NCBI GenBank assembly: GCA_946410595.1
Contig: CAMKAU010000006.1
Location: forward strand, 1-53,606
Source: an uncultured Clostridia bacterium
GTDB taxonomy: Bacteria > Bacillota > Clostridia > Oscillospirales > CAG-272
Direction of reading: 5' to 3'
Length of the DNA: 53,606 nucleotides
The notes under the pieces: model-generated
Told to the model about the DNA's origin: nothing
The model's database searches: none
Seen by the model: only the letters and a program-made list of their open reading frames with translations
In this document: positions 46,537-51,580 of the stretch, piece after piece
Layout: each line of letters begins with the position of its first letter
Numbering within the stretch: position 1 is the first letter of the stretch
Translations under genes and position numbers: made by a program

Positions 46537-46565
46537 TTGAAATCGGAAAACAAAGCGGATATAAT
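46537..46565 (+). promoter_or_regulatory. Promoter of secreted esterase gene
   Basis: TTGAAA-17-TATAAT. Confidence 0.7.
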
Positions 46566-46599
46566 GGAAGCAAGATCCGGAAAAGGAGAATTGACAATC

Positions 46600-48660
46600 A
46601 TGAAAAAAAGGATTTTCCGTTCCCTTGCGTTTTTTCTCTCGCTTTGCCTGGCGTGTCCGCTCGTCGGAGCGGTTCTTCCGCCCGTTTCGGCGGCGGGGAA
46701 GGCGGTTTATCTGAAAAAAGGCGGATCGGGAGCCAAGGACGGATCCTCGCCCGAAAACGCCTTTTCCACGCTGACGGATTCCTACGCCGCGCTCGGGAAC
46801 GACGGCGGGACGGTCGTCATCTGCGGGGAGTTTACGATCAACTCTCACTTTACCGAGCCTGTCCACGAGGGCGTCGTCACGGTAACGCAGAACTACAATG
46901 ATATCGATTACCGCTCTGTCGGGAGCGTTAACAACGGCAGCGAGGGAAAACGCTGGATCCTCAACGGTCCTACGGTCTTTACCGATATTTCCTTTGTTTC
47001 GACCGTTCCCGCCGGCTCCAAGTATAATTATATCCTCTTTATCGCGCAGGGCAACCCGATCACCTTTGCGGAGGGCGTTTCCTGCGAAGGGTTTCCCAAT
47101 ACCCAGGTCGCCACAAGCGTTTCGATCGTCGGCGGCCGCCAGAACGGCGTGACCCCCGCCGCTGACCGCGGCAACGATTCGCATATCACCGTCAGATCCG
47201 GCACGCTGATCGTCGTCGGGCTGGACCGCCAGCTGGAGCGCACCCACGGCGGCGTTGCCCACATCGAGATCGACGACGGCACCTTCCCCTATGTTTACGG
47301 CGGCAACGTCAACAACGGCACGGGCGGCGGACTGGAGCTGACGATCAACGGCGGCCGCTTTACCGGCAAGGTCGAGTGCGGGGACCGCCTGTCCGGCGAC
47401 GTCTCCGTGACGGTCAACGGCGGGGATTTTTCGGCGTGTCCCTCGATCACCGGTTCTTCCTCCGGCGTACTTACCGTCGGAGAGTCGGTCGAGAGCGCGG
47501 TCGCTCCGATCGCTACCGGCTTTTCCGAGATCCGTACCTCCTCCGGCGTCCGGCACAACCTGGTCGCCGAGGAAGCGTTCGGCTCCGACGTTTTCACCGA
47601 TTCGCACGGCACCCGCATCCCCTACCGTTATTACCTCCCGGAAGGGTATGACAAAAATGCGGATACCGTCTATCCCGTCTTCTTCTACTTCCACGGCAAC
47701 GGCTCCCGCGGCAACGATAACAAAAAGCAGCTTTCCGCCTCCACGCACGCGATCGTGACAAAGGTCCTCAACTATACCGAGGATGCGATCATCGTGGCGC
47801 CGCAGTGTCCCGTCGCTCCGGAGGAGTGGACGGACCACAACTGCTATCCCGGCCACGCAAGCTACGACCCGGAGTCCACTCCGCTCAAGACCTATATGAC
47901 GGCGGCGCTGGAGCTCTTCAATAGCTTTTTGGAAACCGAAAAGATCGACCCGACCCGCATCTATATCGCCGGCGCGTCGAACGGCGCGGGCGCCTGCTGG
48001 AACGCGATCGCCCACTCGCCGAAGACGGTCGCGGCCGGCGTTATCCTGGCTGGCACCGGGCAGACGGGCGGCGCGGAGAACATCGCGGAATACTATCTCA
48101 ACACGCCGATCTGGACCTTCCACGGCGACGCGGATACGACCCTTTCTGTGGCGGGTACGCGCGGGATCGTAAACGCCGTGAAGGCGCTCGGCGGTACGAA
48201 GATGACCTATACCGAGATGCCGGGCTACAACCACAATATCTGGACGGACGCGGCGAATACCGAGGGACTGCTTGAGTGGATGTTCTCGCAGAAGCGGACC
48301 GATTCCGTCGGCGTTTTCCGCCTCGCGGATGAAGCGGATAAGACGCACGCGGATCTGCTCTCCCTCCGCGCCGGCGGCACGGAGACGGAGCGTCCGGCAG
48401 AGGAAACTCTCTCTCCGGAGACGAACGCTCCTGCGGAAACGCAGAAGGCAGGTGACGCGACAACGACTCCCGCTGCGACGGAATCTCCGTCGGACGCCGC
48501 AACGGAATCGATGTCAGACGCCGCAACGGATTCCGCGAAAACCGATCCGACTCCCGATCCGAAAAAGGGAACGCCTTGGTACCTTTGGGCGATCATCGGA
48601 GGAGTCGTCGCCGCAGGCGCGGCCTGCGCCGTCGTATTCCTCAGCAAAAAGCGCAAATAA
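46600..48660 (+). CDS. Secreted, C-terminally membrane-anchored protein: beta-helix-like N-terminal part plus alpha/beta-hydrolase (esterase-like)
   Basis: Signal peptide; KAVYLKKGGSGAKDGSSPENAFSTLTDSYAAL; IYIAGASNGAGACWNAIAHS (GxSxG), FHGDADTTLSV, MPGYNHNIW; Thr/Glu-rich linker and final TM WYLWAIIGGVVAAGAACAVVFLSKKRK. Confidence 0.82.
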   Translation: MKKRIFRSLAFFLSLCLACPLVGAVLPPVSAAGKAVYLKKGGSGAKDGSSPENAFSTLTDSYAALGNDGGTVVICGEFTINSHFTEPVHEGVVTVTQNYNDIDYRSVGSVNNGSEGKRWILNGPTVFTDISFVSTVPAGSKYNYILFIAQGNPITFAEGVSCEGFPNTQVATSVSIVGGRQNGVTPAADRGNDSHITVRSGTLIVVGLDRQLERTHGGVAHIEIDDGTFPYVYGGNVNNGTGGGLELTINGGRFTGKVECGDRLSGDVSVTVNGGDFSACPSITGSSSGVLTVGESVESAVAPIATGFSEIRTSSGVRHNLVAEEAFGSDVFTDSHGTRIPYRYYLPEGYDKNADTVYPVFFYFHGNGSRGNDNKKQLSASTHAIVTKVLNYTEDAIIVAPQCPVAPEEWTDHNCYPGHASYDPESTPLKTYMTAALELFNSFLETEKIDPTRIYIAGASNGAGACWNAIAHSPKTVAAGVILAGTGQTGGAENIAEYYLNTPIWTFHGDADTTLSVAGTRGIVNAVKALGGTKMTYTEMPGYNHNIWTDAANTEGLLEWMFSQKRTDSVGVFRLADEADKTHADLLSLRAGGTETERPAEETLSPETNAPAETQKAGDATTTPAATESPSDAATESMSDAATDSAKTDPTPDPKKGTPWYLWAIIGGVVAAGAACAVVFLSKKRK

Positions 48661-48705: not shown

Positions 48706-49449
48706 TCAGTTTGCGAAGAACCGCTCCAGAAACGCGGCGGTCTTGGGATTGTTCGGCTTTTTGAAGATCACGGAGGGAACGTCGTCTTCGCAGATGACGC
48801 CGCCCTCCATGTAAACCACACGGGAGGACACGTCGCGGGCGAACGCCATTTCATGCGTCACGACGATCATCGTCAGTCCTTCCGACGCCAGCTGCCGCAT
48901 AACGGTCAGCACCTCGCCGACCATCTGCGGGTCAAGGGCGCTTGTCGGCTCGTCAAATAGCAGCATTTCGGGGGACATCGCAAGGGAACGGGCGATCGCG
49001 ACCCGCTGCTTCTGTCCGCCGGAAAGCTGGGCGGGTTTGGCGTTGATAAACTGTTCCATCCCCACCTTCCGCAGATAGGTCATCGCCGTTTCTTTCGCTT
49101 CCTCTTTGCTGCGCTTGAGGACCTTGATCTGCCCGACGGTGCAGTTTTCCAGCGCCGTCATATTGTTGAACAGGTTGAACTGCTGGAAGACCATCCCAAC
49201 GCTTGCGCGGTATTTTTGGAGATCGTTTTCCTTTGAGGTAATATCCACCCCGTGATAGAGGATCTCGCCCGCGGTCGGGTTTTCCAGCAGATTGACGCAG
49301 CGCAGCATCGTGCTTTTTCCCGAGCCGGAGGCGCCGATCACGCTGACGACCTCCCCCTTCGATACGGAAAGGTTGATATCGTCCAGAACGAGGTGATCGC
49401 CGAACTGTTTTTTCAGATGCGTGATTTGAATGATCGGTTCAGCTGACAT
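48706..49449 (-). CDS. Amino-acid ABC transporter ATP-binding protein (predicted lysine uptake)
   Basis: GASGSGKSTMLRCVNLLENPTAGEI, LSGGQKQRVAIARSLAMSPEMLLFDEPTSALDPQMVGEVL. Confidence 0.96.
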   Translation of the reverse strand: MSAEPIIQITHLKKQFGDHLVLDDINLSVSKGEVVSVIGASGSGKSTMLRCVNLLENPTAGEILYHGVDITSKENDLQKYRASVGMVFQQFNLFNNMTALENCTVGQIKVLKRSKEEAKETAMTYLRKVGMEQFINAKPAQLSGGQKQRVAIARSLAMSPEMLLFDEPTSALDPQMVGEVLTVMRQLASEGLTMIVVTHEMAFARDVSSRVVYMEGGVICEDDVPSVIFKKPNNPKTAAFLERFFAN

Positions 49450-50362
49450 AGTTCGGCTCCTCCTTTTTCACCTTGATCTCCGCGTCCGGGTCGCTCTGCG
49501 AGCCGAAGATGGTATAGCTCTCCTTGCCGGCGAGCTTCTTTTCCGCCAGGCGGAGCAGCCGCGTTACGGTAAAGGTGAGGATAAAGTAGATGACGCAGAC
49601 GATCAGATAGGTTTCAAAAGTTTTGAAGGTTTCCCGTTTGATGATACCGGCAAAGTAGTAGAGCTCGGTTACGCCGATCACGTTCAGCACAGAGGTATCC
49701 TTGATATTGATCACAAACTCGTTGCTGACGGAGGGGAGGATATTGCGCATCACCTGGGGGATGATAACGGAGAGCATCGTCTGACCGTGGCTCATCCCGA
49801 TCGAGGCCGCGCCCTCAAACTGCCCCTTGTCGATCGAGATGATCCCGCCTCGCACGATCTCCGCCATGTAAGCGCCGGTATTGATCGACACGATAAAGAT
49901 CCCGGAGGGGATCAAGGGGAGGGTGCTGCCGCCCGTGGCGAAGGCGTAGCCCCAGTAAATGACCATCGCCTGCACCATCATCGGCGTCCCGCGGAAGATC
50001 TCAACGTAGACGGAGATGATCTTGTTGAGGAGCTTATGGAAAAAGCAGAGGACGGCGTTTTTGGAATAGGGAGCGGTACGGATGATCCCGGTCAGCATCC
50101 CGATAAGGAGCCCCGCCACGGTGCCGACAAGAGAGATCAGCATCGTCTGTCCGACGCCGCGGAGGAGCAGCGGATATTTTTCCGTTAAGATTTTCCAGAC
50201 GTTCTCAAAAAAACCCGGCTCGTTCTTTGTCGCTTCCGCGGGGGCGGCGGCTCCGTCAGCCGCGGCGGCTGTGAGAACGGGAAGCGCGGAGAGGAGCAGC
50301 GCCGCGCAGAAGAGAAAGACGAAAAACCGGAAATAGCGTTTCGATTGATGATACATAATCAT
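49439..50362 (-). CDS. Amino-acid ABC transporter permease with N-terminal signal-like extension
   Basis: LLRGVGQTMLISLVGTVAGLLIGMLTGIIRT...VEIFRGTPMMVQAMVIYW...GAYMAEIVRGGIISIDKGQFEGAASIGM. Confidence 0.94.
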   Translation of the reverse strand: MIMYHQSKRYFRFFVFLFCAALLLSALPVLTAAAADGAAAPAEATKNEPGFFENVWKILTEKYPLLLRGVGQTMLISLVGTVAGLLIGMLTGIIRTAPYSKNAVLCFFHKLLNKIISVYVEIFRGTPMMVQAMVIYWGYAFATGGSTLPLIPSGIFIVSINTGAYMAEIVRGGIISIDKGQFEGAASIGMSHGQTMLSVIIPQVMRNILPSVSNEFVINIKDTSVLNVIGVTELYYFAGIIKRETFKTFETYLIVCVIYFILTFTVTRLLRLAEKKLAGKESYTIFGSQSDPDAEIKVKKEEPNYVS

Positions 50363-50425: not shown

Positions 50426-51307
50426 TTATTTTTTGTAGATCACAACGAGATTGGAGGAGTAGTACACGTTGCTGAAGTCAACCTCCTGGGCGCGCTCCTC
50501 CGTCGGGCTCATACCGGCGACGATGGCGTCGACCGTTCCGGCCTGGAGAGCGGGAAGCAGGGAATCCCATTCGATCGCGTAGACCTCGAGAGCCATGCCG
50601 AGCTTATCGGCAACGTACTTGGCGATCTGGATATCGTAACCGTTCGCGTAGAGACCGGTCTTGCCTTCGCCGGAGATCGGCACGGCGCCGAAAGATCCGC
50701 CGGAAACGGTATCGGTCCAGTTGAAGGGCTCGTAGGCGCATTCCATCGCGACCTTCAGCGTTCCGTTGGTCGTTGCGGGCGTTTCGGACTTAAGGGAGAG
50801 CGAGGTCAGCGTTTCGCCCGCGCTCAGCTTCACCATTTCTTCCATCAGGTTTTTTTGCGTGGTTTCGTCGATTTCCGCGAGGATGGCGTTGATCTTCGCT
50901 TTGAGATCGGAGCCCTTCTTTACGGCGACGGCGATGCCGACTTCGGCGTCCGTCGCGGTAAAGCCGGTGTCATTGTTTTTGAAGTGCAGATAATCGAGCG
51001 AGCTGTCGGAAAGGCAGGCGGCAAGGGCGGTCGGCTCCTCGGCCACGTAGCCGTCGATCGCGCCGCTCTTCAAAGCGACGAGCAGATCGGCAAACTCGGG
51101 ATAGGTCGACGAAACGACGCCGTCGATCTGTTCGAGCGCGTCCGCGTGGAAGGTGCCGGCCTGCGCGGCGATCTTGAGGCCGCTCAGATCAGCGAGTTTC
51201 TCGGCTTTTGCAATATTGCCGGAGGCGCTGCTGTTCCGGCAGGAGCAGAGTCCGAGCATAGCGAAAACAAGAAGAAGCGCGAGACAGGAGAGAACGATTC
51301 TTTTCAT
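50426..51307 (-). CDS. Amino-acid ABC transporter substrate-binding lipoprotein, apparent circular permutant of SBP_bac_3
   Basis: Signal/lipobox MLGLCSCRN; lobe-2-like LADLSGLKIAAQAGTFHADALEQI...VGIAVAVKKGSDLKAKINAILAEI precedes lobe-1-like LKVAMECAYEPFNW...GYDIQIAKYVADKLGM...IVAGMSPTEERAQEVDFSNVYYSSNLVVIYKK*. Confidence 0.88.
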   Translation of the reverse strand: MKRIVLSCLALLLVFAMLGLCSCRNSSASGNIAKAEKLADLSGLKIAAQAGTFHADALEQIDGVVSSTYPEFADLLVALKSGAIDGYVAEEPTALAACLSDSSLDYLHFKNNDTGFTATDAEVGIAVAVKKGSDLKAKINAILAEIDETTQKNLMEEMVKLSAGETLTSLSLKSETPATTNGTLKVAMECAYEPFNWTDTVSGGSFGAVPISGEGKTGLYANGYDIQIAKYVADKLGMALEVYAIEWDSLLPALQAGTVDAIVAGMSPTEERAQEVDFSNVYYSSNLVVIYKK

Positions 51308-51327: not shown

Positions 51328-51367
51328 AAAAATAATATAACCGTAAACGTGAAGTACACATTTACGG
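51328..51367 (-). terminator. Riboswitch-linked intrinsic terminator
   Basis: Reverse strand CCGTAAATGTGTACTTCACGTTTACGG then TTATATTATTTTT. Confidence 0.8.
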
Positions 51368-51383
51368 CGATTTCCTTCGTAAA

Positions 51384-51552: not shown

Positions 51553-51580
51553 ATTATACAGAAAAAGCAGGGAATTGCAA
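51553..51580 (-). promoter_or_regulatory. Promoter of lysine-riboswitch transporter operon
   Basis: Reverse strand TTGCAA-16-TATAAT. Confidence 0.7.

Follow-up and report, generated by a model that had tools for sequence, protein, structure and literature searches.

A circularly permuted family-3 solute-binding protein behind a lysine riboswitch in an uncultured Clostridia bacterium, and relatives with new chain ends at the hinge crossings

The analyzed window, a stretch of 53,606 nucleotides from the genome of an uncultured Clostridia bacterium, carries on its minus strand (50426-51307) an open reading frame for a solute-binding protein (SBP) of family 3 whose chain is rotated relative to the canonical members of the family. 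The 293-aa product begins with a lipoprotein signal peptide, which is followed by lobe 2, by the segment that returns to lobe 1 (1b) and by the first part of lobe 1 (1a). The canonical order lobe 1a - lobe 2 - lobe 1b is absent and the observed order is 2-1b-1a, thus the protein is a circularly permuted variant that is homologous to family 3 but not canonical. We propose, with a probability of about 0.88, that it is a working lipid-anchored SBP of an ABC importer for a polar amino acid, most likely L-lysine, and that it operates with a circularly permuted chain. The coordinates of the gene, of its segments and of the neighboring elements are collected in Table 1.

The Pfam profile SBP_bac_3 (PF00497) matches the window SBP in two stretches (85 bits), with no single collinear match, and the stronger of these stretches, at the C-terminal residues 220-293, corresponds to the start of the profile (positions 20-92). 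The reversed order is also seen in alignments with amino-acid SBPs from the PDB, where the lobe-1 stretch of the query (222-292) precedes its lobe-2 stretch (35-151) in the target. Against a canonical profile built from 18 canonical relatives, the native protein gives one match at residues 29-162 (model 156-289, 155 bits) and a second at residues 174-293 (model 41-155, 162 bits), as well as a weak match of the signal peptide (residues 1-28) to model positions 11-37; the same protein rotated in silico gives a single collinear match of 328 bits (model 46-289). Given the two-part match of the native chain and the single match of the rotated one, the break separates model positions 155 and 156 and lies in the loop of the first crossing from lobe 1 to lobe 2 (hinge 1). 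In the profile alignment, none of the canonical positions 41-289 is lost and none is duplicated. The window SBP is thereby confirmed as an exact circular permutation of a family-3 SBP, as proposed in the preliminary description of this locus, which had read lobe 2 as encoded first and had expected PF00497 to match in two reversed parts. Two finer proposals are borne out as well: the native ends are joined by a linker, seen as the unmatched residues between the two profile matches, and the new ends open in the loop of hinge 1, immediately ahead of the LADL helix. The predicted relocation of the lipid anchor to the lobe-2/hinge end follows from the segment order itself. In the alignment of the window-clade members, Cys23 and many motif positions are invariant.

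Table 1. Features of the permuted SBP gene and its surroundings (positions refer to the window).
Feature	Position	Strand	Basis
Sigma-70-like promoter, TTGCAA-16-TATAAT	51553..51580	-	Consensus match only
Lysine riboswitch aptamer, RF00168	51379..51538	-	Rfam, 92.8 bits, E=3.5e-25 (gathering score 30)
Terminator hairpin, probably the expression platform, located between aptamer and gene	51340..51368	-	z -3.5
Coding sequence, stop included, of the permuted family-3 SBP (293 aa)	50426..51307	-	ORF, PF00497 and canonical-profile matches
Signal peptide and lipobox, residues 1-23	51239..51307	-	Cys23 invariant in clade; sequence
Lobe 2, residues ~29-101, starting at canonical model position 156	51005..51223	-	Block scoring and profile
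Return segment of lobe 1 (C-terminal part in the canonical order), residues ~102-162, ending at model 289	50822..51004	-	Block scoring and profile
Linker between the former C and N termini, residues 163-173 without match, loosely extending to about 182	50789..50821	-	Profile
First part of lobe 1, residues 174-293, model 41-155, protein end at the hinge-1 strand	50429..50788	-	Profile
Single amino-acid ABC permease gene (BPD_transp_1)	49439..50362	-	Profile match, operon comparison
GlnQ/HisP-type ATPase gene	48706..49449	-	Profile match, operon comparison

The SBP gene is the first in an operon of the GlnP/GlnQ type with the order SBP - permease - ATPase, a layout that the examined permuted operons retain. 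The permease of the window's genus (49439-50362 in the window; also L031 and L032) has an extra N-terminal signal-like segment and a linker that are absent from the other operons compared. On the plus strand of the window (46537-48660), the translation, read by eye, looks like a large secreted protein that has an esterase-like region in its C-terminal portion and ends in a membrane anchor.

The riboswitch of the window is the only RF00168 copy in this 98.6%-complete genome. Lysine riboswitches precede the permuted genes of the window clade in 9 out of 9 tested loci (L001-L003, L005-L007, L033-L035) and the genes of twelve canonical sisters (L009, L010, L011, L014, L015, L017, L082, L145, L147, L148, L150, L154); neither the 20 loci selected among other permuted clades nor the tested hinge-2 loci are preceded by one. 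Since all nine tested permuted homologs and these canonical sisters share the element, L-lysine is the most likely substrate predicted from the regulation. At what we take, from the LAO structures, to be the ligand-contact sites of Escherichia coli ArgT/HisJ, the aligned residues of the window SBP are kept or conservatively replaced (R77 by R272, S72 by S267, S120 by T52, D161 by E90, D11 by E189, and Y14 by Y192). Two of the key sites, E90 and E189, thus carry Glu instead of Asp, which counts against the proposed explanation. A functional permuted SBP with a main ligand other than lysine, such as arginine, ornithine or another polar amino acid, would suit the resemblance of the pocket to that of ArgT (Lys/Arg/Orn) and the ease with which family-3 specificity shifts, a property that sequence does not reveal; however, it is unlikely in view of the strict association with the lysine riboswitch in both permuted and canonical members, and of the ABC lysine transporters (lysX-lysY) that lie downstream of lysine riboswitches in Firmicutes (PMC5584792). 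The window's genome encodes dapA and gave no match to lysA, which might mean that the bacterium is a lysine auxotroph or that the assembly has a gap. Since a clear lysA copy was seen in four permuted relatives and dapA is present, auxotrophy was dropped as support for lysine uptake and is not counted as evidence.

The best of five AlphaFold2 models of the window SBP is two-lobed (pLDDT 74.8, pTM 0.71), but the other four are poor (pLDDT 35-48), so that the models, made from a shallow alignment of six sequences, give moderate structural support. With regard to the structural expectation of the preliminary description, the best model is one two-lobed protein and not two fragments, with one model out of five being confident. 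Two separate half-proteins are improbable, given the one open reading frame and the two-lobed best model. Foldseek, which aligns sequentially, matched the model to two-lobed type II SBPs; its best collinear match in the PDB is OpuAC (TM ~0.5), with the family-3 proteins scoring lower, and this match would fit a two-lobed, lobe-2-first chain.

We propose that an ancestral lysine SBP of the canonical order (lobe 1a - lobe 2 - lobe 1b) was converted into a chain with the order lobe 2 - lobe 1b - linker - lobe 1a behind the signal peptide, the cut being placed in the first lobe-to-lobe crossing. The fold and the pocket were presumably kept. The rotation makes each lobe one uninterrupted stretch, leaves a single covalent crossing and lets the lipid anchor enter at the end formed by the hinge and lobe 2. 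Under lysine shortage, the riboswitch would permit readthrough into the operon, and the SBP would close on lysine and pass it to the permease, which presumably acts as a homodimer because the operon has a single permease gene.

A profile of the permuted proteins detected many more permuted relatives across the order and the class, and one outside the class (G880). The same approach revealed a second rotation, cut at hinge 2, whose chain starts with the lobe-1 return segment and has lobe 2 last. For 209 fetched proteins, we scored three blocks (1, lobe 1a; 2, lobe 2; 3, return segment) and obtained the orders 123 in 94, 231 in 72, and 312 in 43 of them; the sample was drawn with permuted queries, thus these counts are not frequencies. 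The three non-cyclic block orders occur in none of the 209 proteins. In a sample of 391 genomes of the class, at least 23 encode a verified 231 protein and at least about 35 a 312 protein, both numbers being lower bounds because few candidates per genome were scored. Most 231 proteins have their C-terminal end at canonical model positions 141-146, a 231 subgroup cut slightly inside lobe 2 (~12 positions in) at 153-158, and the 312 proteins at 215-220; the new ends of permuted family-3 SBPs are clustered at the hinge crossings. A PDB sequence search with the hinge-2 family recognized no permuted entry; its best matches to known amino-acid SBPs were confined to their lobe 1 and the beginning of their lobe 2. 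The 312 rotation was observed at loci L041, L042, L092, L094, L095, L107-L109, and L176-L205, including single-contig genomes. At four other loci (L078, L080, L138, L139), a 231 SBP is fused to an ABC permease in one chain of 501-537 aa. In L245 (2988-4770), as also in L104, a 312 SBP gene immediately precedes an SBP gene whose cut lies just within lobe 2, and one permease and one ATPase gene follow.

The origin of the rotations was addressed with a tree of 84 proteins whose sequences were set in canonical block order. The window clade is nested inside the canonical lysine SBPs (branches 100/100, 99/91, 100/99), with the canonical proteins L082 and L147 as its next relatives, and the direction from canonical to permuted is clear for this clade; for the other clades the tree has no inferred root. 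The starred branches require six or more changes for 231 and three or more for 312, and the subgroup cut inside lobe 2 nests within a 312 clade. With groups set by block order, independently of the tree, a single clade is rejected by the AU test both for 231 (p=1.2e-48) and for 312 (p=7.2e-5). The C-terminal cut lies within model positions 141-146 in nearly all lobe-2-first clades, as might be expected if one old event had given rise to all lobe-2-first family-3 SBPs, that of the window included; such a single ancestral permutation is rejected by the AU tests and also contradicts the at least six changes and the nested position of the window clade, which leaves it very improbable. It is likely that the family-3 SBPs of this class were rotated repeatedly and independently, with ends at either crossing or ~12 positions past the first, as a recurring and perhaps adaptive change in tethering or in opening and closing that is invisible to standard annotation. 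Rotation at the crossings makes each lobe one stretch of the chain and moves the lipid anchor from the lobe-1 end to the hinge.

Tandem duplication followed by trimming is a plausible route to these proteins. The relatives include tandem SBP genes (L026, L029, L091) and fused canonical family-3 SBP domains, two or three per protein, in chains of 761-1000 aa (L076, L083, L085); a deletion within a fused pair that retained the first signal peptide would yield both rotations. No duplicated intermediate was seen in the window clade. The same tandem genes and fused domains might suggest that the window gene is a decaying remnant of a duplication that no longer works as an SBP, a reading that we regard as scarcely credible: the canonical domain is complete with no residue missing, dN/dS between the window-clade members is 0.14-0.30, indicative of purifying selection, and the gene is the first of an intact operon behind an intact riboswitch. 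Moreover, it is the genome's only match to its subfamily; the other two family-3 SBPs of this genome are distant canonical ones.

The same arrangement is present in at least eight other genomes, where the proteins are 57-90% identical to the window SBP (87-90% within its genus and 57-70% across other genera of the family). Public metagenome contigs, including some from the goat rumen, horse feces, and the water buffalo cecum, carry it too. The lobe-2-first order, for which a survey of homologs had been suggested at the outset, is thus kept across independent assemblies, and is neither a product of chance nor an assembly error. The window and most of its close relatives are metagenome-assembled, but an assembly chimera or a collapsed tandem repeat hiding a canonical gene is ruled out for practical purposes by the identical junctions in independent assemblies at such divergence, the purifying selection, and the presence of relatives with the other rotation in single-contig genomes of 3-4.9 Mb (G616, G644, G763).

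Beyond the preliminary description, which had neither the lysine riboswitch nor the homologs in view, permuted family-3 relatives are common among related gut bacteria, have several independent origins, and are cut at or adjoining the hinge between the lobes. With about 50% identity per half and a shared regulation and operon, the rotated and canonical forms constitute matched natural pairs that allow measuring the effect of chain order on folding, hinge motion, and docking to the permease. Independent origins with the same cut places point to a rule for where the fold tolerates new ends, which is useful in sensor design. Generic annotation masks the rotation, because the profile match resembles that of an ordinary SBP.

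The window SBP shares homologous lobes, pocket positions, and operon partners with the canonical family-3 SBPs (E. coli ArgT/LAO, HisJ, and GlnH) and with the LysX-LysY importers, and it has the lysine riboswitch in common with its canonical sisters; in contrast to the canonical proteins, it is rotated, ends at hinge 1, and has a linker between the former termini. That SBPs can accept new ends is known from SBPs that were circularly permuted by engineering for use as biosensors. In the open-access literature, we found no report of natural permutation in family-3 SBPs. The lipoprotein TpMglB-2 (Tp0684) of Treponema pallidum, which serves an ABC importer, is a naturally circularly permuted SBP whose N lobe is rearranged by the permutation; it still binds glucose and closes, and it has relatives in gut Gram-positive bacteria (PMC4990184). 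The window SBP is not of this type, since its sequence belongs to PF00497 (type II) and is cut at hinge 1: TpMglB-2 is a type I sugar SBP in which the permutation adds a fourth crossing at the hinge (PMC4990184), whereas the type II protein of the window has lost a crossing because the cut lies in the hinge crossing. Among type II SBPs, the glycine-betaine-binding (OpuAC, ProX) and molybdate-binding proteins were grouped by CPSARST as a circular-permutation family (PMC2395249). The latter consists of divergent pairs with less than 24% identity and other ligands (PMC2395249), whereas the window SBP and its canonical sisters differ by a rotation at about 50% identity per half. Natural permutation of SBPs is thus already known from TpMglB-2 and the betaine-binding proteins, and the surprising parts are its recurrence in family 3 and the clustering of the cuts.
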